NCBI GenBank assembly: GCA_037833965.1
Contig: AP031355.1
Location: forward strand, 4,055,501-4,119,500
DNA length: 64,000 nt
Direction of reading: 5' to 3'
DNA from: Marchantia polymorpha subsp. ruderalis
Taxonomy: Eukaryota > Streptophyta > Marchantiopsida > Marchantiales > Marchantiaceae
The notes under the pieces were generated by a model. The model saw only the letters and a program-made list of their open reading frames with translations, ran no database searches and had not been told where the DNA came from. Positions 7,541 to 60,252 of this stretch are shown piece by piece. The position numbers and the translations under genes were made by a program. How positions within the stretch are numbered: the stretch's first letter is position 1; the number at the start of each line of letters is the position of its first letter.

Positions 7541-7830
7541 CCATACCAGAAAAATCCTATCTCCGCCCCTGCTTCCACCCAAACTGAGAAACATGGACAA
7601 ATTCCCAAGGCTTGCAGCTGATATTCACAGGTCCAAGACTGCAAATACACTGCATCAATACCAAACAGATGATTGAACAAAAAATCTCAGAGTGTCAGAG
7701 TGAAGTCCAGTTTCTTTGAATTTTTTACCCTAAGCTTGGATTCGGCTTGAATTTTGTGCTGAATCTTTGATTAGCTTGGAAGCTGCGATAGTCTTCGAGC
7801 TCAAATCATCGAAAAGCATCGGATTCAGTG

Positions 7831-8566: not shown

Positions 8567-9707
8567 GTCTTAGAAGCTGACTAGGACATTATAGTCAGAG
8601 CACCTCTTTGTCCAGATTGCAACAATAACATGAAGTAGCTTGGATTTCTACGCCGTGCTCTTTATCCAGATGTGACTTGCAACAAGTCAGAAGTATAGAA
8701 TCTGATATGATTTGTACTTATCTTATCTTATCAACTCATAATTTCCACTTATATATTTTATACGGGTGATCTGATGCCGCCGATTTAACTGAAAGATCCA
8801 GAGATGGACGTGTAAATTGAGTTGTTCTCCACGGAAAAGACCTCAAGCGGTAATTGCATTGTTCATTGTTAAGTGATAGTTCTTCAAGCATCCGCATTAC
8901 AAAGCTGCGCTGGCACTTGAATTAATCCTTGGAGTTTTTCTATGATAGAAATCTGATCATGTGTTTGGTAGCTGTACACAGAAAAAGAATAAATTATCAT
9001 ATTGAGAAAGAAAAAATTAGAAAATGGCTACATGGAAAACCATGTTGCCATTTTCTACCCTCAGTAGTATTGAGGTTACAAAAACAATACACTTGCGAAG
9101 GAGAACAGACCGAACTAAAATTCTTACTCGTACTTTTAGCTCAAACACTTCCAGTAACCTGCATTCGTGGGAATCCGTGCCTATCACATGTTGCAGCCCT
9201 CTCACAGGTTGCACACGACATACATCGGCCAAGATATCGTCGCGATGAGATCTTTGTCGAAATCATTGGAAAGGTATATTTCTGATTATAGATGTGATGA
9301 CATATGAACATAACATTCACGATACGTCAAATACAAGTCTAATTAATATTATTTTTTAGACAGAACATGTCCACGATGACATTGCCCACGAGTACAGCAT
9401 AAATGTCAACTGCAATCGCATGTACTTGAGATAATGCGCTGATAATTTAGAAGAAAAAAAGGGCTCTGTTCTCCAGCAGCCAACTAGATCCATTACACGT
9501 TTCTTTCTGTAGTTATGCGTCGTATGCATGGACACATATATCAGCTGAATTGGATGCTTAGATATTCTCTCTTACACACACTAGCGCACAAGTATAACAC
9601 TACTGTGTCAAAAATAATGGGCGTATACTCCAAAGCTCTAGCAACCACCGGACTAAATTTGTTACTTCATGTAGAGAAACCCGCACATACAAGCGGGAGT
9701 TCAGGCT

Positions 9708-11752: not shown

Positions 11753-11976
11753 TCCCAAGGGCTCGAAGCTCATAATCACAACTTTAGCATACTCTTAGGA
11801 CTGCCAAAATCTTTCACCACTATCAGTCAGCTGAAATCCCAGAGTGTCACAGTGAAGTTTCTGTGTTTATCAATCCGGACCTTGCCTGGAGTTTGAAATT
11901 TGTGCTGAATCTTTGAGAAGCTTGGAGGTTGCGACAGTCTTCTAGTTCACATCATCGAAAACCATCGGACTTAGTG

Positions 11977-12705
11977 ATGGGGCTCGTGCGGATCATGGGA
12001 CCTGCGTGCTGCGATTTGATATTATTGACGATGTTCATACTGATGGTAGGTGCTGTCCAAGCAGCTGATCCAGATCCCCTCCAGGATTTCTGTATTGCAG
12101 ATCTTAGTCACAAATCTGGACAGGGGTATTTTTTGAATGGCTACCCGTGCAAGGATCCGGCAACAGTCAGGGCAGAAGACTTCATCTTCAAGGGCTTGAA
12201 AGATGCCAGCATAATTTCACCTGAAAATCCCTGGGGCGCATCGGCAAATCTCGCCTTCGCCCGTCATTGGCCCGCTTTGAACACGCTCGGAGTCGCGTTG
12301 GTGCGCCTTGATTTGATTCCAGGTGGTGTCATTGCCCCACACACTCACAACCTGGCCACTGAGATTGTGTTCGTCACAGCGGGAGAGCTGTACATCGGAT
12401 TCGTGGCCAACAGTGACGACGTTAGCGCTCCCAACAAGCTGTTCGCTGGGATGGTGAAGGCCGGAGAGGCGTTCGTTATCCCCAGAGGCTTGGTGCATTT
12501 CCAGATGAACAAAGGAACGAAGAATGCTTCGACAATCAACTTCCTCAACTCTCACAATCCGGGAATCTCATTTCTCCCTCTCACTCTGTTTGGAGCCCAG
12601 CCAGCTGTGGATCCGGCTCTGCTGGCGAGGTCTTTCGCAGTCAACGAAACCGCAGTGTCTGCTCTAGAAAGTTTATGGTCTAATTTCAGTGGTTTGTTTG
12701 TGTAA
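11977..12705 (+). CDS. Germin-like protein (secreted cupin), intact
   Basis: Intronless gene of 242 aa, typical germin-like length. Residues 1-29 are a signal peptide ending AVQA. Cys39 and Cys58 are the expected disulfide pair. Cupin box 1 (about 116-136) has the HTH ligands His122 and His124 plus Glu129; box 2 (163-178) reads GEAFVIPRGLVHFQMN with His174 as the fourth Mn ligand. NAS, NET and NFS are possible N-glycosylation sites. Germin-like proteins are apoplastic Mn-binding oligomers, some with oxalate oxidase or superoxide dismutase activity; which applies here cannot be read. An upstream in-frame ATG-less extension to 11929 is open but would bury the signal peptide, so 11977 is chosen, matching the start context of the left duplicate (GTGATGGGGCT). 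The gene is the functional member of the tandem pair. Confidence 0.93.
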   Translation: MGLVRIMGPACCDLILLTMFILMVGAVQAADPDPLQDFCIADLSHKSGQGYFLNGYPCKDPATVRAEDFIFKGLKDASIISPENPWGASANLAFARHWPALNTLGVALVRLDLIPGGVIAPHTHNLATEIVFVTAGELYIGFVANSDDVSAPNKLFAGMVKAGEAFVIPRGLVHFQMNKGTKNASTINFLNSHNPGISFLPLTLFGAQPAVDPALLARSFAVNETAVSALESLWSNFSGLFV

Positions 12706-14819
12706 GGCTTAGAAGTTGAATGGGACACCGTAGACTAGCTAGACTGCGCTTGTACGCAGACATGGCTGTGATTGTCAGCACATCTGCTTGTCCAGATTGC
12801 AACAATAACATGAAGTAGCTTGGATTTCTACAGCACGCTCTTTATCCAGATGTGACTTGCAAGAAGTCAGCAGTGTAGAAACTGACATGATTCTGTATTT
12901 ACCTTATCTTATCTTTTTATCTTATATTTTGTACTTCTGTGTTTTATACGATTGATCTGATGCCACCGATTGAAATGAAAGACAAAGAGATGGACGTGTA
13001 AATTGGGCTGTTCTCCACGGAAAAGATCTAAAGCGAAAATCGCATTGTTTAAATACGTAGCGAGGAAATGAATCAGCTGCAGCTATACTTCGAGCTACTT
13101 ATTCTCAGTCTATACACTCGACGGTTAGCAGGTAAACAGAAAAACAACATGGGCTTGAAGTTTAGAGTCCTACTCTTCACTGGCCAGCACAATCGGGGGG
13201 CCAACCAATGATCGATAGTCTACAAATCAATGTGAACTCTGCCGTGACTTCCTCAGATCTTCAGATTCCTTCTAATATTGCTTCTGGAACGGTAAAACTA
13301 GAGGCACAAGATACCTCAGTGACTACCAAGGACTTGTCCATGGCTGGTCTGAGGCACAGATCGCTTCTACGCTTCCCATGAGCCACTAAACTTGCCACTA
13401 CTAGATTGATCATTTAGTGGAGATCGTCTCCAGGCCAATCAGAGCATCACCCAGACGATAGAGATTGAGTTTTCAGGCCTTTGTCGGTTGAGGGTGAGTA
13501 CCCATAAGCTGAATAGTATAGTGAATGACGATCAATTGAGGAAGCTATGCGCTGATAACTCATTGGCTTGAATAAACTTGTGCGCTGCAGGAGTCTAGCC
13601 AGAAAGCAACTTAATACTCCCAATGAAATAGAGATACAGAGATGGGTGTTGGGTTAGAACGTCAGTTTACCTATAGGTCCCTTTCAGCCAAGCAATGTCC
13701 ATTTGGAGTACCCATGTCCTTGTTAAGATGTAACTATTTTATCATGTGTGTTAATACGCGATTTCGATAAGTCAATGGTAGCTCTTCAAGCATCAGCCTT
13801 ACAAAGCGCAGCTTTGTAATGCGGATAGTAATGCCGCACAATATCGAATGCTTGGAATCTTTTTATGATATAAATCTGAAAGTTGTTCTTTTTGAAATCA
13901 TGGTCTCTGATCGTGAGGCCAATAAAAGAGGACCTTTGGTAGCTGATCATGTAAAACAAAGGAATAAATTAATTATTGAGTTCTCCATGTATTCAATTTC
14001 TACCCTCAGCAGTATTGAGGTTACACAAACAAAACACTTGCAAAGGAGAACAGACCAAACTAACATTCTCACTCCTACTTATAGCTCGAACACTACGCGT
14101 AACCTGCCTGATTGGGAATCGTGCCGATCACATGTTGCACCCCCATTACATGTTCCATGACATACATCGGCCAGATATCGTGGTGATGAGATCTTTGTCG
14201 ATATCTATAGTGAGGTATATTTATTAATTACATATTTAATTTGATGTCGCATACACATAATATTCACGATACGTCAAAGACAAGTCTACCGAATATTTAA
14301 AATTTAGTCAGAAAATGTCCACGATGACATTGCTCATGAGTACACCATAAATTTTGACTGCAGTCGCTAGTACTTGAGATAATGCGTTGATGATATGGAA
14401 GAGAAAGTGGGCTCTGTTCTCTATATGCCAACGAAACCCACACATACGAGCCGTGTTCAGGCTCGCAGCTCTAGTGACGAGGATTTTACAATAATGTCTT
14501 TTCGTTCTAAATAGTGTATGCACTCCACTCTACCAAAACTTTGAAGTAGACCGATTACCTTTGTCTTATTCAAGGTACTCACGCGGCCTATAATTCAGGA
14601 GAAGGTTTTTTAATTTGATTACTAAAATCGTTTTTTTTTTTAATCATTAACTTGGTGATTTCAGCTGTGCTTTAAATCTTTACTTGGTTGACTGAGTTAT
14701 CATTATGACTTTAATTTATCTCATCTTATATCATTTTATAAAATTGTATTTTTAAGTTAGTTGTTCTATATTAAATTTGAAATTTTTCATATAATTTTTT
14801 ATTAATATCTTTATTTATC
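12706..14819. other. 3' flank of germin-like gene, no gene recognised
   Basis: Mostly duplicated flank plus the unique block of about 725 bp described above. Short open frames lack recognisable content. From about 14630 the sequence is very AT-rich up to the abrupt GC-rich retroelement boundary. Confidence 0.6.
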
Positions 14820-14997: not shown

Positions 14998-15852
14998 CGT
15001 AGTGCAGTGTAATGCTAGTTAGGACTTAGAAGGTATAAAGTAGTTCAAGGCGTCTTGCCTTGGGATTTTTCCAGTTTCGGAAGTGCAGATCAGGAACTCA
15101 TTTTCTCTGCGTGTTTGTGTCCTTAGTTCTGTCACCACAAGAGAGGAGCTACACCTTAGCGATCCGCATTGTGTAGCTGAAGGCCTTCGGCCGAAAATTC
15201 AAAGCTAGTACATTGGTTAGAGACTTGAGTAGTTCGGATCTACACCTGCGGGTGATTGTCGATGCTCGGAGCCAATAACTAGTTAGATACTTGAATAGTT
15301 TCGCCCCTACACCTTCGAGTGTTTGTTCCTGATTGTACTCCTTCGGGATTTTTCCCCTGAATGCCAAAGTGAAGTTTTGCTACTTCGTGTAAGCCTTGGT
15401 TGTAAATTCAGGTTACGCTGCAGCAGGTGCCTTCAGGGTAACCCCTGTAGTATTTCTGGAAATGACAAGTGCCTAAGAATTCAAACTCTTCAATAGACTG
15501 TTGTAGGTGTTACCGGATCGTTTCTCAGTTGAGTCCCTCCGTGCGAACCTGTGTTTTCTGCGCGTTTTGTGAGTTGAGCGTGTTGTTCACCACGTGTGAG
15601 TGACTTCGATCCGAAGTAGGAAGTCCAATCCGGGTTCCCTACGCTAGCAGAAAACTAGTAGAAGGGTTGTAAAAGCCGGAGTTGGGAGTCACTACCCGCA
15701 GCTTTGCTGAGTGTACTCGCGAGAGACTTTCCCCCTGAAATCTTGAGTAGAGGTCCCAACCGATCTCTGGGTTGTGTTTCTGTAGTTTCAGGTGTGTGTG
15801 TGTGTGTGTTGTACGCTGCACTGTGCGACCTCCGAGTGAGCTCCGAGTGAAC
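14820..15852 (+). mobile_element. 5'-truncated B-family LTR relic, left portion
   Basis: The sequence enters abruptly inside the LTR-encoded ORF (C-terminal residues ending in a stop at 14995-14997) and continues through the LTR TATA box (TATAAAG, 15034-15040), the proximal hairpin (15046-15062), the R/U5-like region and a (GT)n tract at 15792-15809. It ends at the target site of element A; the last five bases (15848-15852, TGAAC) are duplicated at 31383-31387. The remaining LTR end is at 31388-31544. The left end is a truncation, so no target duplication of its own can be seen. Confidence 0.88.
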
Positions 15853-15864
15853 TGTGGTAACACA

Positions 15865-15883
15865 CTTTTTGTTTTTTTTGCAG
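15865..15883 (+). promoter_or_regulatory. Candidate 3' splice site at the start of the LTR
   Basis: A T-rich tract ending TTTTTTTTGCAG lies 12-31 bases inside the LTR; the identical copy at 26525-26543 would sit just downstream of pol in genomic RNA. In form it is a very good plant acceptor. It could serve a spliced subgenomic mRNA for ORF3, but no donor was identified. Inference only. Confidence 0.3.
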
Positions 15884-17207
15884 AATTTAAACAATTTTAG
15901 AAAACTAGTACCAAAGCAGTGTTTGTAGCTAGAGAAGGGTACGCTAAATAGAGTGGATTGATGAGATCGTCACGAGGGCACAAAGAATCACGTAGTCGGA
16001 TGTACCAACGCCAACGTCTTCGGCGCCTTCGGCAAAGGCTCCTTTTTGAGGTGTCTCTACTCACGCGCCTCTAGCGTATAAGGAAGCTACGCTTCCGGCG
16101 CAGACACCTCAGGAGGAGGTTTTGCTAAAGACGTCAGGAGAAGGGCCCGGACCTCTAAAGGCATCCGACCATGAGTGCGCCTTCGGCGAAGCGCCGCTAG
16201 CGCGGAAAGGGAAAACCTTCATAACAATCGGGATACACGGTAGATCCAGTTGGTTGAAGTTGCATTAGAAAGAGCTCGGGACGCTCGTTCTAACGAGTCC
16301 AAGAGCGCCGGAGATGGATCAGGAATGGAGAAGTTATGAGCGTCGGCAAACTCGTAGCCGGACATGCGCCGTTCGCGCTAGGGTTCACAGCCGGAAAGGA
16401 TTCCCGTACGCCCTCGGCGATGCGCCTTCGGCGGAATCACGCGCTCACAGGAGGAAACCAACTCAGAGTCGGAAGCGCCCTTGGCGGCTGTTCATGGAAG
16501 GAAAGCGCCGGTCGGATGTACGCCTCCGACGTGGCGCTGACGGCCGGATGCGCTGGCATGAGTTGCGCTGACGGATATGCGCTGGCAGCAACGGACGAGG
16601 CATAAAGGACAAAATAGGCGGTACGACTGCGCGCCGGCGTAATTCGCTCCGGCTGGATGTGCGCCTCCAGCAAGGCGCCGACGGATAATGAACGCACCAG
16701 CGGCGACACGCCTCCGGAGAAGGGCGGGTTAGGAAAAGACAACAGGGCCGACGTATACCCTGCAGCGGACTCGAGTCCGGAAGGTGGCGGCGGCGGGAGA
16801 ATTCAACGTTTAAGCATGCGAATGCGCGCAATGCGGAGACGTGAATTCGCGCATGCAAAGGGCGAACCGTTAAGCCGTATAGCCGGCTGCGTACGTTGCA
16901 ACCAGTAAGAACGTTGGACGTTCTTGAAATCGGAGAAGAAAAGACTGCGCTCCAGTCTCATTCTCTCATTCTTGACTTTGCGATTTCCAGTTCCAAGATT
17001 ACGCGCAAGGGCGGAACGACCTGCAGTGAGAGTAGAGAGTGCGGAGACGAGTTGCACAAGGATCTTGACGGACCTTGAAAGAATTGGGAGTAGCGATCTT
17101 GAACGAGCGCAGAGAGAGTGAGCAGTCAGTGCTTGAGTGGCCGACGCGCAGTGGCGATTGTGAGAGAGTGAGCGAAAGGGAGAACGTTTGTGTGTGCAGG
17201 CAACGCA

Positions 17208-19763
17208 ATGTCGAAGGTTCCCCAACTGCGAGTGTCTCCACTCAGGGTGCCGCAGATCGGTCTACGCGCATTTCAAGATGTGCTGACGAGGCTGAAGCTC
17301 GATTTTCTCCTCTGGGGGTGGAATTGGACGTGTCCGGAGATGGTGCGCGAGTATCTGCAAGAGAGACACAAGCCTTCTCGCGGATTTCGCCCACACCCAG
17401 AGAGATGGGAAATTTGCAATTGGGCGCAGGTGTTGGGCAGGTGTGCCGGCGAGGAAGGGGATCTCCTCTTCGAGGCCGACAGCGTGAAAGTGTCCCAGGA
17501 GGAAGAAGTCTCTTACAATGAGCTCTTCAAGGTGGCTAGACATCCCAAGAACGGTTTCCGGACTCGGGATTACAAGGATCGATTGCGGAGAAATGTCGCG
17601 ACAGCATTGCTGCAGATATTGCAGCCGACCAAGACCGCTTACATGCATGGTTGGCAGGTAGAGTTCGTGGAGCTAGTGTTGTCAGGAGCTCCGGTGCATT
17701 GGGCACGGCTCCTGTGGAAGGTGACGCGCCAACATGCGCAAGAAGAGAGGGGAGGAACGCTCAACCATCTATCGCCTTACTTAATCGTGTTTTACCGGGC
17801 GATGGGATGTTTGACGAATGCTGAGAAAACTCGGTTTCCGCAGCTGAGCCGGTCTTATCCAGGTAGATATTCGAGGGAGGCCGAAGTAGACACGGATCCG
17901 GACGAGGAACCTGCCAGTACGCCTCCGGCTCCGGCTCCAGCCAGAGCAGCAGAAGAACGTCGAAGTGAGCGTATTCCGCGCAAGCGGAAGTGGGATGAGA
18001 GACCTGAGGACAGGCAGCCGGAAGTACCAGCTGCGCCGACTCGTGGTCGGCCCACCCCCGAGCCTCATAGTCGACCAAAACAGAGGGCACGCAGAATGCC
18101 AACTGTTACTGAGGAGACCAGGAGAACTCCGACCCGGCGGAATCTCACACAGGAAGAGATAATTGCTCAGGTCCTAGGGAAGACGGCAGAAACCTCTGCA
18201 CAGAAGGCACCACGGCCTTCGGGAGGAGATGGACGGACTGACGACCGGCCGACTGCGAGTCGGATGACTGAAGGTCGACAAGCGGAAGGAAGGCCAACTG
18301 AACGGCGCGTGGAACCGGACAGCAGGCCGGAAGCAGAAGAGAGTTTGGCTGACGAGCCAACAATCCTCAGAGGGTCGTCTTCGGCGGAAGGCACTTCTGG
18401 AAGAACGCCCCCAACAAGCAGGCCAAGTGGAGTCAAGACGCGCAGGGTGTATCCGACTCCCAGTCGGACAACTGCTGATCGGCCGACTGCGAGTCGGACA
18501 ACAGAGAGTCAGCCGGATTCGCCGACTGCGAGACGGATGGGGCCAACGACCAGTGTGCGGACGCCTTCGGCGGACGCACCTTCAGCAAGGACACCTTCCG
18601 CGCAGATTGCGCCGGAAGGACAGGCAGCAGAAGCGGGCGGTGCAAGAGTGACAAAAGTCACTACGGCGTCGACCCCTTCACAAACCGAAGATCGAGCCGG
18701 AACAGGGGCTCAAGCAGTGGGATCTCCCACTGCCCTGGATATTTTAGCAGGCAGTGGAGCAGCAGTCGCAGAGGAAGCTGCTGCGCGCCACAGTTCCAGG
18801 GAGTCGCCAAGGGATTCGGTGGCGACTGAGATCCTCGAGACTGAGGATGAGACGAGCTCGGAAGAGCAAGAAGAGGATTCGGTGCAGAAAACGCCAACAG
18901 GGGTGCTGTGCGAACAGATAGTTCCACTCCTGCGATATCTGGATCGCAAGACATCCAAATACGCAAGTGCCTTAAAACCGCAGTCTTATGTGGAGACAAT
19001 CAGGCGAAGGACGAGGAGCAAGGTGGCAAGGTGGGCCTCTAGATGCGGAGTATATGTGGATAGGAACACCGCCCTCCGACAACACCTGGCGGTCACCCAG
19101 AAGCTGTACCAAGCCTTGCAGCAGCAGAAGGAGGATGCGGCGACGAAGAGTCAGGCGGAGGCCGAACTAATACGGGCAAAGATCGAGTCGGAACTGCAGG
19201 AGGAGCGGAGACAGAACAAAGTCCTAGCAGCCGAGCTTGCGCGCCAGACGCGCGCCTTAGAGGAAAGTCAACGAGCCCGCAAGGAGGATGAGGAGTTGTT
19301 GTGCAACTTGCAAACCGAGTGCTCGGATTTGAGGGCACAACGTGCGGATTTAGAAATGCAGCTGGCAGAGGAGGAGAGCAGCTGCAGGGCACGAGGAGAG
19401 TTGGCGGCACGGGTGACTCGTTGTCTAAACGGATACACCCATTGGGAGGTGGCAGCTCAAGAGAGGGTTACACTCCGGGAGTTCGAGCTTCGGGCGGCGG
19501 CATTGACGGAAGGTGACAGTCGGAGTCGGCGGCGAGTGGCGAGAAAATTAGAAACTTTCTTGTCGGGTGCGCGCGACACTATGGCGCACTTGCAGTCGGA
19601 AGTCACCACAGCGCTCCGACGCCTGGGGTTACGCAGCCGGTCGGAAGACTGGCAAGGTAGAGACAGTAAGCGGAGCAGTCCGGCGCGCAGGAGGCGCAGC
19701 ACCGGATCTGCTGAGTGCAGTAGAGTAGTTTGGTTTCGCGCAGATGCTGCGAGTGGTAGATAG
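17208..19763 (+). CDS. LTR-encoded ORF3 protein, 851 aa (5' LTR copy)
   Basis: Long open frame within U3, sense to gag-pol; function unknown. The start at 17208 is chosen because the AACGCAATG context is shared with B-family copies. About 1-215 is a conserved, Trp-rich, probably helical region (FLLWGWNWTCPEMVREYL, RTRDYKDRLRR, GAPVHWA, GGTLNHLSPYLI). About 255-263 is an NLS-like RIPRKRKW. About 265-560 is Pro/Arg/Thr-rich low complexity. LLRYLDRK at about 574 opens a conserved block, about 622-740 is a coiled coil, and the tail is basic (RRRRSTGSAEC). No membrane segment or signal peptide is seen, which argues against an envelope protein. Similar blocks in families B and C point to protein-level constraint. 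In the 5' LTR it lies upstream of the TATA box, so the 3' LTR copy is the one present in genomic RNA. Confidence 0.8.
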   Translation: MSKVPQLRVSPLRVPQIGLRAFQDVLTRLKLDFLLWGWNWTCPEMVREYLQERHKPSRGFRPHPERWEICNWAQVLGRCAGEEGDLLFEADSVKVSQEEEVSYNELFKVARHPKNGFRTRDYKDRLRRNVATALLQILQPTKTAYMHGWQVEFVELVLSGAPVHWARLLWKVTRQHAQEERGGTLNHLSPYLIVFYRAMGCLTNAEKTRFPQLSRSYPGRYSREAEVDTDPDEEPASTPPAPAPARAAEERRSERIPRKRKWDERPEDRQPEVPAAPTRGRPTPEPHSRPKQRARRMPTVTEETRRTPTRRNLTQEEIIAQVLGKTAETSAQKAPRPSGGDGRTDDRPTASRMTEGRQAEGRPTERRVEPDSRPEAEESLADEPTILRGSSSAEGTSGRTPPTSRPSGVKTRRVYPTPSRTTADRPTASRTTESQPDSPTARRMGPTTSVRTPSADAPSARTPSAQIAPEGQAAEAGGARVTKVTTASTPSQTEDRAGTGAQAVGSPTALDILAGSGAAVAEEAAARHSSRESPRDSVATEILETEDETSSEEQEEDSVQKTPTGVLCEQIVPLLRYLDRKTSKYASALKPQSYVETIRRRTRSKVARWASRCGVYVDRNTALRQHLAVTQKLYQALQQQKEDAATKSQAEAELIRAKIESELQEERRQNKVLAAELARQTRALEESQRARKEDEELLCNLQTECSDLRAQRADLEMQLAEEESSCRARGELAARVTRCLNGYTHWEVAAQERVTLREFELRAAALTEGDSRSRRRVARKLETFLSGARDTMAHLQSEVTTALRRLGLRSRSEDWQGRDSKRSSPARRRRSTGSAECSRVVWFRADAASGR

Positions 19764-19797
19764 GATAGCGTAGTGCTAGTTAGGATCTTTTTGAGAG

Positions 19798-19804
19798 TAT
19801 AAAG
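19798..19804 (+). promoter_or_regulatory. LTR TATA box of element A
   Basis: TATAAAG begins 35 bp after the ORF3 stop codon. The same element is at 30458-30464 in the other LTR, and TATAAAA or TATAAAG stands at the same place in every B copy (15034, 34887-34893 on the minus strand, 49340, 59268). Transcription would start about 30 bp further on, placing ORF3 in U3. Confidence 0.7.
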
Positions 19805-19809
19805 TAGAT

Positions 19810-19826
19810 CAAGGCGTTTTGCCTTG
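19810..19826 (+). promoter_or_regulatory. Conserved hairpin just downstream of the LTR TATA box
   Basis: Six-base arms CAAGGC and GCCTTG enclose GTTTT. In B copies the arms are CCAGGC and GCCTGG at the same place (for example 49352-49368), a paired change that keeps the stem. It lies at or just before the predicted transcription start. Confidence 0.5.
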
Positions 19827-20744
19827 GGACTCTTCCAGTTTCGGAAGTACAGATCAGGAACTCACTTTCTTGGCGTGTTTGTGCATTTTGGTCCTGGCAC
19901 CACGTAGAGAAGCTGCAGCATAGCGAAGTTACCGTATGTTGTAGTTGAAGGCCTTCGGCTGAATGTTCAGAGCTCGCACCCGGTTAGAGACTTGAGTAGT
20001 GCGGATCTGCACCTGCGGGTGATTTCTGATACTCAGAGCCGGCTGCGAGTTAGATACTTGAACAGTTCCCCCTTACTCCTTCGAGTGACATATCCTGATT
20101 GTACTCCTACGGGAAGTTTCCCCTGAATGCCAATGTGAAGTTTCATTACTTCGTGTAAACCTTGGTTTGTAATTCAGGTTGTGTGTGTGTTACTGGATCG
20201 TGTTTTCAGTAAGTTCTCAGTCGGGTCTGCACTCCCTGCGTTTTGTGTGATAGTCGAGGGTGACGTCCACGGCGTACGTAGAGGCTTCGTTCCGAAGTGA
20301 GAAGTCCAGTCCGGGTACCCCCGCTAGTTCCTGGCGGAAGGGCAGTAAAAGCCGGAGTGGGAGGCACTTCCTGCAGAACCTCTGAGTGAACTTGCGAGAC
20401 ACTTTCCTCCTGAAATCCGAAGCGGAGGTCCTGACCGACCTCCGAGTTGTGCTTTTTGCCAGTTTCAGGTGTGTGTGTGTGTGTGTTGAGTGACCAAGCT
20501 GTACCGTGCATCCTCCGAGCATCCTCCGAGTTGAGTTCCTCCTCCGAGTCGAGCCTCCGAGTCGAGCACTACAGTATTTCTGGGAGTGACAGTCGCCTAG
20601 AATTCAAACTCTACCAAAAGTCTGTTAAACGTGACACTTTTACTCTGTGTGTTGCCTCTGTCCCTGTGGGTTCGATCTTTTTACCACCATACTGCAGTTT
20701 TAGCCTTTGGTGGGTTATTACATAAGGAGCCGACAACTTCTTTT

Positions 20745-20762
20745 TGGCGCCGCTGCCGGGGA
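20745..20762 (+). promoter_or_regulatory. Primer binding site, tRNA-Asp type (element A)
   Basis: TGGCGCCGCTGCCGGGGA begins 22 nt after the LTR end. It matches the complement of the 3' end of plant tRNA-Asp(GUC), CCA included, except for one base in the middle. This primer is typical of Athila/Tat-like plant elements. Confidence 0.85.
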
Positions 20763-20794
20763 CAGTGCGTCAACACCAGAACCCTTGAGCAGCA

Positions 20795-20836
20795 ATGCTC
20801 GGTGAATGTCGACGAGCGATAGTGTGGGAAACCTGA
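20795..20836 (+). CDS. 13-codon upstream ORF overlapping the gag start
   Basis: ATG at 20795 opens a 13-codon frame starting MLGECR and ending TGA at 20834-20836, in a different frame from gag, whose ATG is 11 nt downstream. Element B3 has the same arrangement, length and first six residues at 50389-50430. It probably tunes gag initiation by leaky scanning; the overlapping bases are partly constrained by gag itself. Confidence 0.45.
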   Translation: MLGECRRAIVWET

Positions 20837-23634
20837 GTGCGAGAGCCACACGGAAACTCCGTCGAGATTCAGAAAAAGCCGTGGAAACAAAACGGCGAAC
20901 TAAAAAGAAGACTCCCGGTGAGGACTCTGCAGAAAGATCGCCATCACCGACTACTGGAAGACAAAGGCGTTCCAGTTCACCTACCGAGAGCATTGAGCTA
21001 ACAGTTCTATTGGACATCCCTCCGACAGGAACTCTTCCTGAGTTTGGCCAACCTAGGATCAGTCCGTCGACAGGATCACCGATGGCAGAACATCAAGCCA
21101 ATCTCCGCCAGGTGTTTTCCCAACCTACCACCAAACATTCGTATCCAAGATATACGGGAACGGGCGACGACGATGATGCAGATTCATACATAAAGCTCTT
21201 CGAGTCTGTCTCCATCGCCAATCGTGAGACTAGTGATGAAGACAGACTACGAATCTTTCCTAGCCTGCTACGCAGACGAGCGCGTAGCTGGTACAACCAT
21301 GAGAGCACCGACCCCACTGGCATCCGGACCTGGGCTCAGCTCAAGGAAAAGTTTCTGAAGCGGTTCCGCGAACTCGGATACGACAGTCGAGTTCTGACCC
21401 GGCTTCGAAATCTTCGACGCGAGCGGAAGGAGAATCTTCGAGACTACACGGAGAGATTCCAAGACCTCCTAGATCGAATTCCGAAGACAGGCCCGGGAGA
21501 ACCGTATTCGGTACAACAGGCAGTGGATTGGTATGTGACAGGGCTCTCAAGAGAAATGGAGACCTTCTGTAGGAGAGGCAAGACTGACACAATCCAAGAT
21601 GTGATAGCTTCCGCGGAGACCTTTGAGACGTCAACCCTTGACACTCGAAGACGCGACCGACGGTCGACGAAGAAGAAGTCGCAAGGCGGACGTCGGAAGA
21701 GAAGGAACTCGCCTTCCTCGACAGAAGAATCAAGCTCCTCCGAATCAAGTTCTTCCTCGGAAGAGGAAGAGGACTCGTCATCTTCAGAAGAAGAAAGACG
21801 GAAGAAGAAACGTAGTGCGATCAAGAAGAAGGATCGAGGTAAGGGAATCCCAGTGAAGACTCAAGGGGACATCGCAGCCAAGGTAGACAACCTGGTGAAG
21901 AATTTTGCGGACCTGAAAGTTCATGTAGTGGGAGGCCAAGACCGACGTAAATCACCTGCGAGACAACGAGCGAATCTCTGGTGTACTACGTGCGGACAGA
22001 TGGGACATGCCAACACGGAGTGCATGTCCGCGCGGCCATCTTACCCAGTGAATGCGGTCGAATGGGCACCACAGTGGGAGAACCCCATGTATTATGCTGA
22101 GCCACCTATGTATTATGCTGAGCAGGTTGAGGACACCGCCTACTCGGTACAGACAGCTCCAGCTACAACTCCGAACCCACCGGTGCATATACCGCGCTTT
22201 GTTCCGAGGGAAATGGCGGGTACACTCCCACCAAGACGCATGGCACCTCCAGGCAATCACAACCGACCTCGACCACAATTCGATGGTTGCTACAACTGCG
22301 GAGACATGGGGCATTACGCGCCAAGTTGTCCCCACCCGAGGAGGCCAATGGGGTATGCACCATTGTGCAGCAATTGCAAGAAGTCTGGACATACAGCAGC
22401 CGAATGTGACCAGCCCCAAATCCCTAGGCCAGCCGTGCGTTTCGTATCAACACCTGGCAAGGAAGAAGTGCAAGTCAACCAGGTAGAACTGAGTCTGGAC
22501 CCAGCTGAAGGAGACGAAGTATGGCCAGAGGAAGAAGTAATGTGCGGTCGGGTAGAAACCCGAAGTTCGAAGAGGAAAGGAGAAGGCCATGAGGACACTC
22601 GCCGCCTCGAGCGTAGGGAAGAGAGGAGGAAGTCTAAAGAAGTTAGAGAAGGCCAGAGGAGAAGGCCGGGTACACCTCCGGCTATGAGAAACACCCAGCC
22701 GGAGCAGAACTTAGAAAAGGCGGACAGGTATTCAGAAGAGTTCCGGACTCGAGATTACCTTCCGGACATCAAAGATGAGGTGAGTCACCTCATCAAGGAA
22801 GCACTGGGCGCCGGAATGACATCCGACGACCGGAAGGCGGTTAGGCCCCCTACACCCCTTCCGACCGCGAGTACAGGAAAACTTCCGGCCGTGACTTCCA
22901 GTACTCCCTACGACATAGTGGAAGACATGGGGAGCCAGAGGGCAAATATTTCCTTCCACCAGTTGTTGGAAGACAATAAGACGTACAGGAGGATGCTGAT
23001 GCTTTCGTTGCGCCGACCACGCAAACCCCGAAAAGAGAAACTTCCGGCTGTGTACAGAGTGGAAGGAGGAGACCTGGGACCTCCAGAGATCGAAGTAGAG
23101 ATCGGAGGCTGCGTCATACAGAAGGTACCAGTGGACTCCGGCTCGGGCGTGAATATCATGACCGAGGAGACAGCGAACTCCTTGGGGTTCCAGACCTTCG
23201 AGCCTACATCCCGAGTATTGCGACTGGCCGATCAAACACGCAGAATGCCACTAGGAATGTTGAGCAATGTGAGAACCAACATTGGAGGAGTGGACTTTCA
23301 ACTGTCCTACATAATACTGCAACCTCTGATGAAGAAAGGTTATGATGTGCTGCTTGGCAGACCGTGGCTATACGATGCCAAAGCAAGGTGTGACTGGAGT
23401 AGGAAGAGATTACAGTTCCGTAGCCCTGCGGACCCTCCGACTGTCATTACCGTACCGTGGACCAAGGTACCCCATGAGGGCGAAACACCTTCCACCACCT
23501 CCGGTTACACAACCGGAGGGGAGACCAGCTCGACATGCACTTCAGAGACCGAAACGTCGGAAGACTTTGTGGGCTACGTCACTTGCTGCTCCATTGAGGA
23601 GGAAGGAGACGAGGTGTATCCGGATGAGGAATAG
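20806..23634 (+). CDS. Gag-protease polyprotein of element A (942 aa)
   Basis: Structural and proteolytic precursor of the virus-like particle. About 120-275 is a retrotransposon gag capsid-type domain (SWYNHES, FRELGYDSRVLTRLRNL, AVDWYVTGL). A basic/Ser/Glu-rich stretch follows. Three CX2CX4HX4C zinc knuckles lie near 393, 496 and 522 (CTTCGQMGHANTEC, CYNCGDMGHYAPSC, CSNCKKSGHTAAEC). An aspartic protease lies near 775-860, with active-site VDSGSGVNIM and the late motif DVLLGRPWLY. The frame ends in TAG and pol continues in the same frame. The start ATG is the first in frame after the primer site and is shared with B3. It appears intact. Confidence 0.93.
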   Translation: MSTSDSVGNLSARATRKLRRDSEKAVETKRRTKKKTPGEDSAERSPSPTTGRQRRSSSPTESIELTVLLDIPPTGTLPEFGQPRISPSTGSPMAEHQANLRQVFSQPTTKHSYPRYTGTGDDDDADSYIKLFESVSIANRETSDEDRLRIFPSLLRRRARSWYNHESTDPTGIRTWAQLKEKFLKRFRELGYDSRVLTRLRNLRRERKENLRDYTERFQDLLDRIPKTGPGEPYSVQQAVDWYVTGLSREMETFCRRGKTDTIQDVIASAETFETSTLDTRRRDRRSTKKKSQGGRRKRRNSPSSTEESSSSESSSSSEEEEDSSSSEEERRKKKRSAIKKKDRGKGIPVKTQGDIAAKVDNLVKNFADLKVHVVGGQDRRKSPARQRANLWCTTCGQMGHANTECMSARPSYPVNAVEWAPQWENPMYYAEPPMYYAEQVEDTAYSVQTAPATTPNPPVHIPRFVPREMAGTLPPRRMAPPGNHNRPRPQFDGCYNCGDMGHYAPSCPHPRRPMGYAPLCSNCKKSGHTAAECDQPQIPRPAVRFVSTPGKEEVQVNQVELSLDPAEGDEVWPEEEVMCGRVETRSSKRKGEGHEDTRRLERREERRKSKEVREGQRRRPGTPPAMRNTQPEQNLEKADRYSEEFRTRDYLPDIKDEVSHLIKEALGAGMTSDDRKAVRPPTPLPTASTGKLPAVTSSTPYDIVEDMGSQRANISFHQLLEDNKTYRRMLMLSLRRPRKPRKEKLPAVYRVEGGDLGPPEIEVEIGGCVIQKVPVDSGSGVNIMTEETANSLGFQTFEPTSRVLRLADQTRRMPLGMLSNVRTNIGGVDFQLSYIILQPLMKKGYDVLLGRPWLYDAKARCDWSRKRLQFRSPADPPTVITVPWTKVPHEGETPSTTSGYTTGGETSSTCTSETETSEDFVGYVTCCSIEEEGDEVYPDEE

Positions 23635-23640
23635 CAACTA
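23632..23640 (+). promoter_or_regulatory. Leaky stop: UAG-CAA-CUA between gag-pro and pol
   Basis: The single stop separating gag-protease from pol is TAG followed by CAACTA, which fits the tobamovirus-type readthrough consensus UAG-CAR-YYA. Gag and pol are in the same frame, there is no ATG between the stop and the start of the RT region, and the codons right after the stop are conserved at protein level in B3 (GLGRSE.SHTEGIVDPSD). Readthrough would yield a Gag-Pol fusion in limited amount. Confidence 0.8.
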
Positions 23641-26475
23641 GCAGCCGGACTGGGCAGAAGCGAGATCAGTCACACAGAGGGGATTGTTGACCCGAGTGAT
23701 TGCTGCGAACTGCAGCTCAGTCCAGGTAAAGGCTTGAAGGTGTCAAGCCAGGTACAAGGAGAAGAGTTGAACAGGGTACAGGCGTTTCTTCGCCAGTATG
23801 AGGATGTCTTCGCATGGAAGATTGAAGACATGAAAGGCATACCTGCAAGGTATGGAGAGCACAGGATCGACTTGTTGGACGAAGCAGTTCCGGTTCGCCA
23901 ACGCCAATACAGGCTCAACCCAAAATATTCATTATTGGTGAAGGACGAAATCGATAAGTACCTGAGCGCAGGAATCATCTACCCGGTACTCAGTAGCGAG
24001 TGGGTGTCGCCTATCGTGATCGTGCCCAAGAAACTGACGGGTAAGATCCGGGTGTGCCAGGACTTCCGAAAGCTGAACGCAGCAACGAGGAAGGACCACC
24101 ACCCTCTTCCTTTCACGGACTCTATTTTAGACCATGTAGCAGGGCATGAATGCTACAGTTTCCTAGACGGATTCTCCGGTTACAACCAGGTGTCCATCAG
24201 GGAACAGGACAAGGACAAAACAACCTTCACGACCGACTGGGGAACCTATGCTTATCACAAGATGCCGTTCGGTCTGTGCAACGCGCCAGCGACGTTCCAG
24301 CGGATGATGACAAACATTTTCCAAGAGCACCTGAGGAAGTTCCTAGAAATTTTCATCGACGACTTTTGTGTCTTCGGTAAGAGGTCGGAGCACCTTAACC
24401 ATCTTCGGCAAACGTTCGACAGGTGTAGGGAAAGCAGCTTGTCCTTACACCCTGAGAAATGTTTTTTCTTCATGACCAGCGGAATCCTGCTGGGGCACCG
24501 AGTTTCGTCCGATGGCATTGCAGTGGATGTAGAGAAGGTGAAGATTATTCTTGAACTGCAGCCGCCAACGAATCTGCGTGAGTTGAGGGCCTTCCTTGGC
24601 CATGTAGGTTATTACAGAAGGTTCATAAATATGTATGCCATCTTGGCAGCCGATCTGACGAAGCTGCTTAAAAAGGATGAACCCTATGTGTGGGGCAAGG
24701 AGCAACAGCTGGCCTTTGAAACGCTCAAAGCCAAACTGACGACTGCTCCGGTTCTGAGAAGTCCGGATTGGAACAGACCTTTCCATGTCTATGTAGACAC
24801 GTCGGCGTTTGCAATCGGGGTGGTTCTCAGTCAGAAGGACGACAACAAGAAAGACTACCCGATTTACTTCGCGAGTCGTCAGTTGTCAGCAGCAGAGAAG
24901 AAGTACACGACAACTGAGAGGGAGGCGTTGGGAATGGTGTACTCCTGCAAGAAGTTTCGACATTATTTGATCTGCTATGAGTTCGTGTTTCATGTAGATC
25001 ATTACGCCTTACAGCACCTGGTGAAGAAGGCGGATCTGTCCGGACGAATTGCCAGGTGGGTGCTACTGCTACAGGAATTCACCTATACTGTACAGACACG
25101 GAAAGGCGTTCACCATGAGAACGCAGACTACCTCTCCCGACTATGGACCGAACCCATAGAGGAGGAAGTAGTGGATGATTTTCCCGACGAACAACTTTTT
25201 CAGTTGTCCGCCAGCCATGAGTCCAGGTACGCGGACTTATACAGGTTTCTGCTCACACTCCAATGTCCGGAAGGATTGGATGCGGAGCAGCGCACAGTCT
25301 TCGTTCATAAAGCGGGACCTTACCAGCTTCAACAGGGGGTCTTGTTCAAGAAAATGGCAGACGAGAGGTTGTGCAGATGTCTAGAGGAGTCTGAAGTACC
25401 GCGAGTTGTCAAAGCCATGCACACAGAAGACGCTGGTGGTCACTACGCCACCAGAAACACAGTGACCAAAATTGTGAATGCAGGATACTGGTGGCCGACG
25501 ATGTTCAAAGATGTACACGACTACGTTCGCAAATGCGACAGCTGCCAGAGAACGGGAAGGCCGACTCCGACCACGAGATGGCCTCTTACACCAATCATGC
25601 CATTGGCACCATTTGAAAAATGGGGGATCGACTTCGTGGGACCAATACAACCTGTCACTAAAGGCACGCGCAGGCGCTACATATTGGTAGCAACAGACTA
25701 TGCGACCAAGATGGTGGAGGCAGAAGCCACAAGGCACGATGACGCAGCCGCAGTAGCACGGTTCCTATTCGAATCAATCATCACCCGCTACGGGTGCCCC
25801 CTAGAAATAGTCAGTGACAGAGGGACGCACTTTCTGAATCAGGTGATAGAGAGTTTGACGCGGCACTTCCAGATTAAGCATCGGAAGACTACTCCATACA
25901 ACCCAAAGGCAAATGGTCTGACAGAGAAGTCCAATGGATTACTCTGTAAGATACTCCTCAAGGTGACTGTAAACCATGCTCATGACTGGGACACCAAGCT
26001 ACCGGCCGCCTTATGGGCCTATAGAACGGCAGAAAAAGTCACCACCAGGCAAACACCTTACTTCCTAGTTTATGGGCAGCATCCGATCTTACCCATCGAA
26101 TTCGAGATACCTACCAAAAGGACCTTAGATCAGAGAAGGCTGGACGCGGAAGAAAGTCAGGCATATCGACTGCAAGAGGTAATGGCACTGGAGGAAAGAC
26201 GTCAAGAGGCCGAAGATCGGACAAAGCAATTACAACTCAGGCGGAAGGAGAAGTACGATCGAAAGCTCAAACCAGTACTGCTGGAGAAGGGCGATTTGGC
26301 TCTGCTATACGATAGCAGACATGCTAGATTTCCAGGCAAGCTCCACTTGAGGTGGATGGGACCTTACAAGGTGATAGAAGTTTTTCCAAATGGATCCATC
26401 CAACTCGCAGAACTGACGGGAGAATGGTTAGGCACCCGCGTGAACGGATGGCGTCTGAAGAAATACCACGTGTAA
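23635..26475 (+). CDS. Pol polyprotein of element A: RT, RNase H, integrase
   Basis: Open from the codon after the gag UAG to the TAA ending at 26475; no good ATG exists until well into the region before RT, so translation by readthrough is inferred. Reverse transcriptase spans about 23900-24550 (WVSPIVIVPKK, RKLNAATRKDHHPLPF, FLDGFSGYNQ, catalytic FIDDF near 24352). RNase H runs about 24780-25140 (VYVDTSAFAIG, TTEREALGMVY, ENADYLSRL). Integrase has an H2C2 zinc finger near 25420-25545, the DD35E core (GIDF near 25627, SDRG near 25812, LTEKSN near 25920) and a C-terminal GPY motif (WMGPYKVIE). No chromodomain and no second RNase H are seen. All catalytic residues are present, so the enzyme set looks functional. 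Confidence 0.95.
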   Translation, partial: QLAAGLGRSEISHTEGIVDPSDCCELQLSPGKGLKVSSQVQGEELNRVQAFLRQYEDVFAWKIEDMKGIPARYGEHRIDLLDEAVPVRQRQYRLNPKYSLLVKDEIDKYLSAGIIYPVLSSEWVSPIVIVPKKLTGKIRVCQDFRKLNAATRKDHHPLPFTDSILDHVAGHECYSFLDGFSGYNQVSIREQDKDKTTFTTDWGTYAYHKMPFGLCNAPATFQRMMTNIFQEHLRKFLEIFIDDFCVFGKRSEHLNHLRQTFDRCRESSLSLHPEKCFFFMTSGILLGHRVSSDGIAVDVEKVKIILELQPPTNLRELRAFLGHVGYYRRFINMYAILAADLTKLLKKDEPYVWGKEQQLAFETLKAKLTTAPVLRSPDWNRPFHVYVDTSAFAIGVVLSQKDDNKKDYPIYFASRQLSAAEKKYTTTEREALGMVYSCKKFRHYLICYEFVFHVDHYALQHLVKKADLSGRIARWVLLLQEFTYTVQTRKGVHHENADYLSRLWTEPIEEEVVDDFPDEQLFQLSASHESRYADLYRFLLTLQCPEGLDAEQRTVFVHKAGPYQLQQGVLFKKMADERLCRCLEESEVPRVVKAMHTEDAGGHYATRNTVTKIVNAGYWWPTMFKDVHDYVRKCDSCQRTGRPTPTTRWPLTPIMPLAPFEKWGIDFVGPIQPVTKGTRRRYILVATDYATKMVEAEATRHDDAAAVARFLFESIITRYGCPLEIVSDRGTHFLNQVIESLTRHFQIKHRKTTPYNPKANGLTEKSNGLLCKILLKVTVNHAHDWDTKLPAALWAYRTAEKVTTRQTPYFLVYGQHPILPIEFEIPTKRTLDQRRLDAEESQAYRLQEVMALEERRQEAEDRTKQLQLRRKEKYDRKLKPVLLEKGDLALLYDSRHARFPGKLHLRWMGPYKVIEVFPNGSIQLAELTGEWLGTRVNGWRLKKYHV

Positions 26476-26499
26476 ATGTTCGCGTGGGCGCTCACAATT

Positions 26500-26510
26500 G
26501 AGGAGGGGGG
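26500..26510 (+). promoter_or_regulatory. Polypurine tract of element A
   Basis: GAGGAGGGGGG, followed by CA and then the 3' LTR. This is the plus-strand primer for reverse transcription. The two bases before the LTR match what integrase normally trims. Confidence 0.8.
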
Positions 26511-26512
26511 CA

Positions 26513-29500
26513 TGTGGTAACACACTTTTTGTTTTTTTTGCAGAATTTAAACAATTTTAGAAAACTAGTACCAAAGCAGTGTTTGTAGCTAGAGAAGGGT
26601 ACGCTAAATAGAGTGGATTGATGAGATCGTCACGAGGGCACAAAGAATCACGTAGTCGGATGTACCAACGCCAACGTCTTCGGCGCCTTCGGCAAAGGCT
26701 CCTTTTTGAGGTGTCTCTACTCACGCGCCTCTAGCGTATAAGGAAGCTACGCTTCCGGCGCAGACACCTCAGGAGGAGGTTTTGCTAAAGACGTCAGGAG
26801 AAGGGCCCGGACCTCTAAAGGCATCCGACCATGAGTGCGCCTTCGGCGAAGCGCCGCTAGCGCGGAAAGGGAAAACCTTCATAACAATCGGGATACACGG
26901 TAGATCCAGTTGGTTGAAGTTGCATTAGAAAGAGCTCGGGACGCTCGTTCTAACGAGTCCAAGAGCGCCGGAGATGGATCAGGAATGGAGAAGTTATGAG
27001 CGTCGGCAAACTCGTAGCCGGACATGCGCCGTTCGCGCTAGGGTTCACAGCCGGAAAGGATTCCCGTACGCCCTCGGCGATGCGCCTTCGGCGGAATCAC
27101 GCGCTCACAGGAGGAAACCAACTCAGAGTCGGAAGCGCCCTTGGCGGCTGTTCATGGAAGGAAAGCGCCGGTCGGATGTACGCCTCCGACGTGGCGCTGA
27201 CGGCCGGATGCGCTGGCATGAGTTGCGCTGACGGATATGCGCTGGCAGCAACGGACGAGGCATAAAGGACAAAATAGGCGGTACGACTGCGCGCCGGCGT
27301 AATTCGCTCCGGCTGGATGTGCGCCTCCAGCAAGGCGCCGACGGATAATGAACGCACCAGCGGCGACACGCCTCCGGAGAAGGGCGGGTTAGGAAAAGAC
27401 AACAGGGCCGACGTATACCCTGCAGCGGACTCGAGTCCGGAAGGTGGCGGCGGCGGGAGAATTCAACGTTTAAGCATGCGAATGCGCGCAATGCGGAGAC
27501 GTGAATTCGCGCATGCAAAGGGCGAACCGTTAAGCCGTATAGCCGGCTGCGTACGTTGCAACCAGTAAGAACGTTGGACGTTCTTGAAATCGGAGAAGAA
27601 AAGACTGCGCTCCAGTCTCATTCTCTCATTCTTGACTTTGCGATTTCCAGTTCCAAGATTACGCGCAAGGGCGGAACGACCTGCAGTGAGAGTAGAGAGT
27701 GCGGAGACGAGTTGCACAAGGATCTTGACGGACCTTGAAAGAATTGGGAGTAGCGATCTTGAACGAGCGCAGAGAGAGTGAGCAGTCAGTGCTTGAGTGG
27801 CCGACGCGCAGTGGCGATTGTGAGAGAGTGAGCGAAAGGGAGAACGTTTGTGTGTGCAGGCAACGCAATGTCGAAGGTTCCCCAACTGCGAGTGTCTCCA
27901 CTCAGGGTGCCGCAGATCGGTCTACGCGCATTTCAAGATGTGCTGACGAGGCTGAAGCTCGATTTTCTCCTCTGGGGGTGGAATTGGACGTGTCCGGAGA
28001 TGGTGCGCGAGTATCTGCAAGAGAGACACAAGCCTTCTCGCGGATTTCGCCCACACCCAGAGAGATGGGAAATTTGCAATTGGGCGCAGGTGTTGGGCAG
28101 GTGTGCCGGCGAGGAAGGGGATCTCCTCTTCGAGGCCGACAGCGTGAAAGTGTCCCAGGAGGAAGAAGTCTCTTACAATGAGCTCTTCAAGGTGGCTAGA
28201 CATCCCAAGAACGGTTTCCGGACTCGGGATTACAAGGATCGATTGCGGAGAAATGTCGCGACAGCATTGCTGCAGATATTGCAGCCGACCAAGACCGCTT
28301 ACATGCATGGTTGGCAGGTAGAGTTCGTGGAGCTAGTGTTGTCAGGAGCTCCGGTGCATTGGGCACGGCTCCTGTGGAAGGTGACGCGCCAACATGCGCA
28401 AGAAGAGAGGGGAGGAACGCTCAACCATCTATCGCCTTACTTAATCGTGTTTTACCGGGCGATGGGATGTTTGACGAATGCTGAGAAAACTCGGTTTCCG
28501 CAGCTGAGCCGGTCTTATCCAGGTAGATATTCGAGGGAGGCCGAAGTAGACACGGATCCGGACGAGGAACCTGCCAGTACGCCTCCGGCTCCGGCTCCAG
28601 CCAGAGCAGCAGAAGAACGTCGAAGTGAGCGTATTCCGCGCAAGCGGAAGTGGGATGAGAGACCTGAGGACAGGCAGCCGGAAGTACCAGCTGCGCCGAC
28701 TCGTGGTCGGCCCACCCCCGAGCCTCATAGTCGACCAAAACAGAGGGCACGCAGAATGCCAACTGTTACTGAGGAGACCAGGAGAACTCCGACCCGGCGG
28801 AATCTCACACAGGAAGAGATAATTGCTCAGGTCCTAGGGAAGACGGCAGAAACCTCTGCACAGAAGGCACCACGGCCTTCGGGAGGAGATGGACGGACTG
28901 ACGACCGGCCGACTGCGAGTCGGATGACTGAAGGTCGACAAGCGGAAGGAAGGCCAACTGAACGGCGCGTGGAACCGGACAGCAGGCCGGAAGCAGAAGA
29001 GAGTTTGGCTGACGAGCCAACAATCCTCAGAGGGTCGTCTTCGGCGGAAGGCACTTCTGGAAGAACGCCCCCAACAAGCAGGCCAAGTGGAGTCAAGACG
29101 CGCAGGGTGTATCCGACTCCCAGTCGGACAACTGCTGATCGGCCGACTGCGAGTCGGACAACAGAGAGTCAGCCGGATTCGCCGACTGCGAGACGGATGG
29201 GGCCAACGACCAGTGTGCGGACGCCTTCGGCGGACGCACCTTCAGCAAGGACACCTTCCGCGCAGATTGCGCCGGAAGGACAGGCAGCAGAAGCGGGCGG
29301 TGCAAGAGTGACAAAAGTCACTACGGCGTCGACCCCTTCACAAACCGAAGATCGAGCCGGAACAGGGGCTCAAGCAGTGGGATCTCCCACTGCCTTGGAT
29401 ATTTTAGCAGGCAGTGGAGCAGCAGTCGCAGAGGAAGCTGCTGCGCGCCACAGTTCCAGGGAGTCGCCAAGGGATTCGGTGGCGACTGAGATCCTCGAGA

Positions 29501-31382: not shown

Positions 31383-31387
31383 TGAAC

Positions 31388-34500: not shown

Positions 34501-34929
34501 ACCTGCTGCAGCGTAACCTGAATTTACAACCAAGGCTTACACGAAGTAGCAAAACTTCACTTTGGCATTCAGGGGAAAAATCCCAAGGAGTACAATCAGA
34601 AAGAAACACTCGAAGGTGTAGGGGCGAAACTGTTCAAGTATCTAACTAGTCACTGGCTCTGAGCATCGGCAGTCACCCGCAGGTGCAGATCCGAACTACT
34701 CAAGTCTCTAACCAATGTACTAGCTCTGAACATTCGGCCGAAGGCCTTCAGCTACAAAATGCGGAACGCTAAGTTGTAACTCCTCGTGCGTGGTGACAGA
34801 ACTCAAGGACACAAACACGCAAAGGAAATGGGTTCCTGATCTATACTTCTGATGGGAAAGAACCCCAGGCAAAACGCCTGGAACTATTTTATACCTTCTA
34901 AGTCCTACCTAGCACTACACTGTGCTACG

Positions 34930-60240: not shown

Positions 60241-60252
60241 TAAGAAGCCGAC

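Follow-up and report, generated by a model that had tools for sequence, protein, structure and literature searches.

A selected open reading frame within the long terminal repeats of a Ty3/gypsy retrotransposon of Marchantia polymorpha

In the parts of the literature covered here, the long terminal repeats (LTRs) of plant retrotransposons are treated as noncoding control DNA, and additional genes are looked for in the internal region. A 64,000-nucleotide stretch of the genome of Marchantia polymorpha subsp. ruderalis (assembly GCA_037833965.1, contig AP031355.1, positions 4,055,501 to 4,119,500; the window, with coordinates counted from its first letter) raises the question whether an LTR can itself hold a protein gene. 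Both LTRs of a retrotransposon in this window, element A, contain a long open reading frame, ORF3, in sense orientation to gag-pol, and a second, old family (B) likewise has ORF3 in its LTR; the frame recurs in a solo LTR and in LTR remnants. As shown below, the ORF3 protein evolves under purifying selection. Sequence features suggest that it is most likely an accessory protein encoded in U3, the LTR part upstream of the transcription start, that it is placed like sag of mouse mammary tumor virus (MMTV), and that it is probably nuclear.

The LTRs of A (15853 to 20722 and 26513 to 31382, forward strand) are 4870 bp long, have TG..CA ends, and are 99.98% identical, with a single mismatch at 18735. 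In the 5′ LTR, ORF3 extends from the ATG at 17208 to 19763 on the forward strand and comprises 851 codons (863 codons from stop to stop); the copy in the 3′ LTR (27868 to 30423, forward strand) encodes the same protein and shows one synonymous difference. In the B type, with LTRs of about 5.4 kb, ORF3 comprises 1045 codons from the first ATG and 961 codons from the methionine aligned with that of A. The original prediction, made from this DNA without database searches, had proposed frames of about 850 to 960 codons in LTRs of 4.9 kb (A) and 5.4 kb (B), in good agreement with these values. The aligned methionine is the likelier start in the B type, because, in the 84 codons ahead of it, the differences between the copies X and C described below are spread almost evenly over the codon positions (18/18/23). 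When the LTR of A was resampled 1000 times with a first-order Markov model, the longest open frame, both strands considered, averaged 190 codons and reached at most 375.

The position of ORF3 relative to the presumed promoter is the same in both families. A TATAAA box is located at 19798 to 19803 on the forward strand and is repeated at 30458 in the 3′ LTR; in the LTR coordinates of A, the ORF3 stop ends at 3911 and the box starts at 3946, leaving 34 bp between them, close to the roughly 35 bp that had been predicted. No other TATA[AT]A occurs in this LTR. Each of the three B-type LTRs scanned likewise contained a single such motif at the equivalent place, which lies 36 bp past the stop in the two copies with a marked stop (34 to 37 bp overall), and no TATA[AT]A was present upstream of ORF3 in any of the four LTRs scanned. 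The box and a large part of what follows it were conserved in an alignment of seven LTR tails; six of these are distinct, the two from A being alike within the LTR. Because the single conserved TATA box follows its stop, we placed ORF3 in U3, which in A would account for about 4.0 of the 4.87 kb, with transcription starting just past the box. That the frame lies in the LTR is observed; that it lies upstream of the transcription start is inferred from the box, and to this extent the predicted U3 location agrees with the sequence, the start itself being a putative one. Upstream of the frame, at 16967 to 16988 in A, we noticed the block CATTCTTGACTTTGCGATTTCC, which recurs in similar form upstream of the aligned methionine in the B-type and C copies and may be a regulatory sequence or the trace of a former N-terminus.

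The ORF3 protein begins with some 230 conserved residues, followed by a low-complexity middle with a basic cluster, a block containing LLRYLDRK, a long predicted helix, and a basic tail. Besides those in A, the window holds further copies and fragments. ORF3 in the 5′ LTR of element B (44903 to 50313, forward strand; hereafter B5) runs from the aligned methionine at 46402 to 49303 and is frameshifted near 46950. The frame is open in the complete B-type LTR of an insertion named X (54849 to 60240, forward strand; ORF3 56346 to 59231 from the aligned methionine) and in a B-type solo LTR (33915 to 39314, reverse strand; ORF3 34930 to 38067 from the first ATG), which is flanked by the target-site duplication TAGGC. 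Remnant C (39386 to 42286, reverse strand) is the 5′ part of an LTR with the N-terminal part and middle of ORF3; remnant D (31607 to 33869, reverse strand, the ORF3 similarity reaching slightly beyond) is the 3′ part of an LTR with coil and tail. A fragment of a further family (42299 to 42947, forward strand), about 50% identical to A, carries the LLRYLDRK block and part of the coil. The blocks said to be common to A, B, and C are indeed shared, except that C provides only the N-terminal part and middle; the coil and tail are found in D, and part of the coil in the fragment at 42299 to 42947.

The original prediction had taken the shared blocks as a sign of selection on the protein and had proposed a comparison of nonsynonymous and synonymous substitution rates (dN and dS) as a check. 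We calculated dN/dS from NG86 counts for six ORF3 pairs, with a null model in which the substitutions of each pair are redistributed according to base and CpG context (500 runs per pair), and relied on the four unsaturated pairs. The dN/dS ratio was 0.241 for X versus C (549 codons; null mean 0.73, minimum 0.50), 0.338 for X versus D (433 codons; null mean 0.80, minimum 0.49), 0.245 for X versus the solo LTR (1045 codons; null mean 0.79, minimum 0.36), and 0.277 for X versus B5 (1045 codons; null mean 0.77, minimum 0.34). All four ratios (0.24 to 0.34) were thus below every one of the 500 neutral simulations, and the changes at the three codon positions of these pairs (90/66/169, 67/61/115, 14/12/32, and 17/13/38, respectively) were most frequent at the third. 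Stop codons were rarer than simulated, with 3 versus 8.9 for X and C, 1 versus 8.0 for X and D, and 0 versus 22.5 for A and X. The comparison of X with the fragment at 42287 to 43000 gave 0.215 (200 codons; null minimum 0.42) at a dS of 2.0 and was not relied on. These results show that the ORF3 protein evolves under purifying selection, as had been proposed.

The constraint differs between the parts of the protein. For the N-terminal block, which in the comparisons based on X takes in the 84 codons upstream of the aligned methionine, dN/dS was 0.164 (C), 0.107 (solo LTR), 0.147 (B5), and 0.208 (A versus X, saturated); the corresponding values for the middle were 0.422, 0.323, 0.206, and 0.264, and those for coil and tail were 0.306 (D) and 0.321 (solo LTR). 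Between A and B, at saturated dS, dN amounted to 0.05 in the reverse transcriptase, 0.05 in the integrase piece, and 0.287 in gag-protease, compared with 0.38, 0.66, and 0.42 in the three ORF3 blocks. ORF3 is the fastest-changing part of the element, yet constrained. The two arms of insertion X differ by 2 synonymous and 5 nonsynonymous changes in 675 codons (ratio 0.83), which is what would be expected once selection has ceased, although seven changes are few.

Proline, serine, threonine, alanine, glycine, and arginine make up 67% of the middle of ORF3 in A, and the basic clusters RKRK/RKRR and RRRR occur in the proteins of A and X. No membrane span was found, the highest 19-residue Kyte-Doolittle means being 1.19 (A) and 1.14 (X), with none above 1.2. 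AlphaFold predicted a long helix of about 175 residues for the C-terminal piece, with a predicted local distance difference test (pLDDT) score per 10-residue block of 92 to 98 over residues 31 to 150 and lower scores afterwards; the model of the N-terminal 235 residues was unusable (mean pLDDT 45). In Pfam, whole ORF3 and 16 members of the N-terminal alignment had no family in common and matched scattered coiled-coil or low-complexity models; one member matched an Extensin-like model (1.9e-4, the best value), and two matched CENP-K (0.0018 or weaker). A sequence search of the PDB gave no match to ORF3 at E values up to 1. The earlier statement that no domain family could be named is upheld by these profile and sequence searches. 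An origin of the N-terminal region from gag was rejected (hhalign probability against gag, 0.2%), as was kinship with PF20167, a family of putative plant transposon proteins, which was absent from the Pfam matches of the N-terminal members. A scan of IMG/VR gave four pattern matches, none of which was confirmed as a relative.

Database relatives were collected by one single-sequence and two profile searches (16, 72, and 56 matches, overlapping), each of which required shared 5-residue words and scored about 8000 candidates, so that distant relatives could escape. Together they yielded 102 distinct relatives, of which 93 carry a species name, in all cases Marchantia polymorpha; all except P0074 match ORF3 of A or X at an E value of 1e-8 or better. 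The closest relative of ORF3 of A is P0001 from Marchantia polymorpha subsp. ruderalis (96% identity over 59%).

Apart from ORF3, element A (15853 to 31382) is a complete, very young Ty3/gypsy retrotransposon. Its LTRs start with TGTGG and end with TTACA, and the 5-bp target-site duplication TGAAC is present on both flanks (15848 to 15852 and 31383 to 31387). The primer binding site (20745 to 20762, forward strand; TGGCGCCGCTGCCGGGGA), which we take to be tRNA-Asp-like, follows the LTR end after 22 nt (20723 to 20762 for gap and site together), a gap wider than usual and identical in B. The gag-protease frame (20806 to 23634, forward strand) ends with TAG and matches Retrotrans_gag (1.1e-13), zf-CCHC, and, below the curated Pfam cutoff, aspartic protease models. 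The pol frame (23635 to 26475, forward strand) matches RVT_1, RT_RNaseH, Integrase_H2C2, and rve, and the polypurine tract (26500 to 26510, forward strand; GAGGAGGGGGG) precedes the 3′ LTR. The structural features of a Ty3/gypsy element (LTR pair with TG..CA ends, target-site duplication, primer site, and polypurine tract) are present, and the Pfam domain order gag, protease, reverse transcriptase, RNase H, and integrase is that of Ty3/gypsy. In both A and B, gag-protease and pol share one frame that is split by a TAG (23632 to 23634 and 53229 to 53231); the stop contexts, TAG CAA CTA in A and TAG CAA TTA in B, presumably fit a leaky stop of the tobacco mosaic virus type, suggesting that pol is expressed by stop-codon readthrough.

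The clade of A was considered from its domains. The pol frame had no chromodomain match in Pfam at E values up to 10; A may nevertheless be a chromovirus, because some chromoviruses do not have a chromodomain. The OTA superclade (Ogre, Tat, and Athila) has been characterized by an extra ORF and, for Tat, by an additional RNase H, according to the parts of the survey covered (PMC6317226); in A, the extra ORF is present but lies in the LTR, and there is one RNase H region, matched by two overlapping Pfam models.

Element A was inserted into an older B-like LTR, the two parts of which flank it. In element B, gag-protease and reverse transcriptase (50400 to 54848, forward strand) are followed by insertion X, which interrupts pol; pol continues after 63516. 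The two full forward-strand B-type LTRs, at 44903 to 50313 and 54849 to 60240, are not to be taken as the pair of one element: the latter is part of a palindromic insertion in its own right (54849 to 63516), with the target-site duplication ATCTG on both sides. X consists of the LTR (54849 to 60240), a 12-nt leader, and an inverted 3269-bp copy of the 5′ part of the LTR (60248 to 63516). Its arms differ by 11 mismatches, both outer ends are LTR 5′ ends, and the junction overlap is 4 of 5 nt; X has the appearance of a cDNA that snapped back and primed itself before integration through two like ends. Elsewhere in the window, two copies of a stretch (7747 to 8863 and 11893 to 13049) are 84 to 88% alike, and one of them holds a frame with a Cupin_1 domain (E value, 3.6e-33), so that this is probably a duplicated host cupin gene beside the retrotransposon nest.

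How might a protein encoded in U3 be made and what might it do? The reading to which we give somewhat better than even chances is that A belongs to a Ty3/gypsy lineage with an LTR-internal U3 gene, which is expressed from a spliced subgenomic RNA and yields a nuclear oligomer acting on the element's own RNA or chromatin. Transcription would start a short way past the TATA box located downstream of ORF3, and the genomic RNA would hold ORF3 only once, downstream of pol, ending with pol, ORF3, and R. With such a start, production of the ORF3 protein requires splicing or a promoter of its own, of which we regard splicing as likelier. The leaders of A and B both contain the donor-like sequence CAG/GTGTGT (at 20469 and 50096, respectively), and a second donor-like site of equal score lies at 22780 in A. 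An AG is located 8 nt before the ORF3 ATG of A and within 1 to 2 nt of that place in four other aligned copies, which may be a coincidence. Gene models from other loci, which are predictions and not transcripts, show ORF3 followed by gag (P0015 and P0072) and integrase followed by the start of ORF3 (P0102); both orders are predicted for a gene present in both LTRs. The oligomer would serve, in the least sure steps of this scheme, as an RNA-export or antisilencing factor. As a guess, a role in the nucleus, exerted on RNA or chromatin, would best match the solubility, basic character, and coiled coil of the protein.

Several observations weigh against this scheme or parts of it. The donor-like CAG/GTGTGT stands at the start of a GT repeat. 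Of the acceptor-like sites of A, the best (at 15883, with a counterpart in the 3′ LTR) has no match in B and is separated from ORF3 by 19 ATGs. The nuclear role, the least sure element, is read from composition alone. Coil and tail gave a dN/dS of 0.560 for X versus B5, and the ratio of 0.143 for A versus X (829 codons) was not used because synonymous sites are saturated (dS 3.4). Finally, none of the 102 relatives has a named species other than Marchantia polymorpha.

The remaining route to an ORF3 mRNA, a promoter within the 1.3 kb by which the LTR precedes the frame, would turn every LTR, the solo LTR included, into a stand-alone gene supplying the protein in trans. We consider this doubtful, but a serious candidate. 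The solo LTR has retained an open ORF3, about 1.35 kb of LTR precede the frame, and MMTV sag has multiple mRNA promoters, as stated in the parts of PMC4667437 covered; on the other hand, A and the B type show poor conservation in this upstream part, and no TATA[AT]A was present there in the four LTRs scanned, which leaves room for a TATA-less promoter. (A scan for bacterial-type promoters found nothing, which is uninformative for a plant.) If transcription instead began upstream of ORF3, the frame would belong to R or U5 and precede gag in the genomic RNA. The two models joining ORF3 to gag, P0015 and P0072, would fit such a start, but both are predictions, and P0015 has a long charged stretch between its ORF3 and gag parts that matches neither. 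Moreover, each LTR has one TATA box, located after ORF3 and followed by conserved sequence, and a frame of about 850 codons would have to precede gag; we judge an upstream start improbable.

Two further readings were weighed. LTRs carry cis signals, and the sequence past ORF3 is well conserved, too, so that the conservation might reflect nucleic acid signals, or chance, rather than a protein. This is very improbable, as the frame far exceeds the longest one in the 1000 resamplings, third codon positions change most, dN/dS lies under the neutral null, and stops are fewer than simulated; the arms of X, which diverged mostly after insertion, provide the contrast with their 2 synonymous and 5 nonsynonymous changes. 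An env-like gene as in Athila or SIRE would share with ORF3 the sense orientation and the position downstream of pol in the genomic RNA. As ORF3 has no membrane span and lies in the LTR rather than between pol and the 3′ LTR, we give this idea hardly any credence.

Accessory frames located in the LTR and in sense orientation to gag-pol are familiar from retroviruses, lentiviral nef being one example and MMTV sag another. Most of sag lies within U3, and LTRs are ordinarily noncoding, according to the parts of PMC4667437 covered. The likeness of ORF3 to sag that had been proposed holds for the position in the LTR and not for the sequence: ORF3 has 851 to 961 codons, no membrane span, and a liverwort host, and no superantigen family was among the Pfam matches of A and X at E values up to 10. 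We presume that Pfam includes a sag model. The env-like ORFs of Athila and SIRE and the antisense ORFs of Grande, RIRE2, and Retand resemble ORF3 in being additional proteins without assigned function that are present in most copies of a family. As far as the sources were covered, however, these and other additional plant ORFs are internal, located either ahead of gag or in the stretch from pol to the 3′ LTR (PMC7264820; PMC6317226), whereas ORF3 lies within the LTR.

The covered parts of the review PMC7264820 mention no ORF inside an LTR, and a term search of its main text for LTR phrases was empty; neither do the covered passages of the survey PMC6317226 (13,863 elements), whose main text does not contain the word Marchantia. 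PMC9985172, which lists 222 full-length LTR elements in M. polymorpha and 2827 in Lunularia cruciata, describes no LTR-internal gene in the passages covered. As the open-access literature, to the extent covered, yielded no plant element whose LTR contains a gene, the original remark that such a gene is rare in plants agrees with these sources. Rice Retrosat2 also has long LTRs (>3.2 kb) and an additional ORF0 evolving faster than gag-pol, but ORF0 is described as located upstream of the gag-pol ORF and is not placed in the LTR in the parts of PMC3485330 covered; this comparison with ORF3 is by description only. The closest functional model is CERV of Cer1 in C. elegans, a nuclear accessory protein with predicted coiled coils that is translated from a spliced mRNA and needed for export of the genomic RNA (PMC10309623, in the parts covered, which do not place it in an LTR); CERV is an analog by description only, not a relative.

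What is new in this locus is the unusual position of the gene and an unnamed protein family; the gypsy core is otherwise ordinary, and the arrangement itself is known from MMTV sag. If the interpretation is correct, a selected gene in the LTR would help to explain the LTR length of about 5 kb, and a solo LTR, normally an inert scar, would still carry a protein gene. It is conceivable, though we put it at somewhat less than an even chance, that ORF3 is an old U3 regulatory protein, that solo LTRs stay coding and distribute numerous copies of a trans-acting nuclear factor, of use to the element, across the liverwort genome, and that the system is an independent plant counterpart of retroviral U3 genes. 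The LTR gene also enters gene annotation, as the 93 named Marchantia models retrieved here demonstrate. Marchantia is a transformable model plant in which it can be asked what the accessory proteins of plant retrotransposons do.
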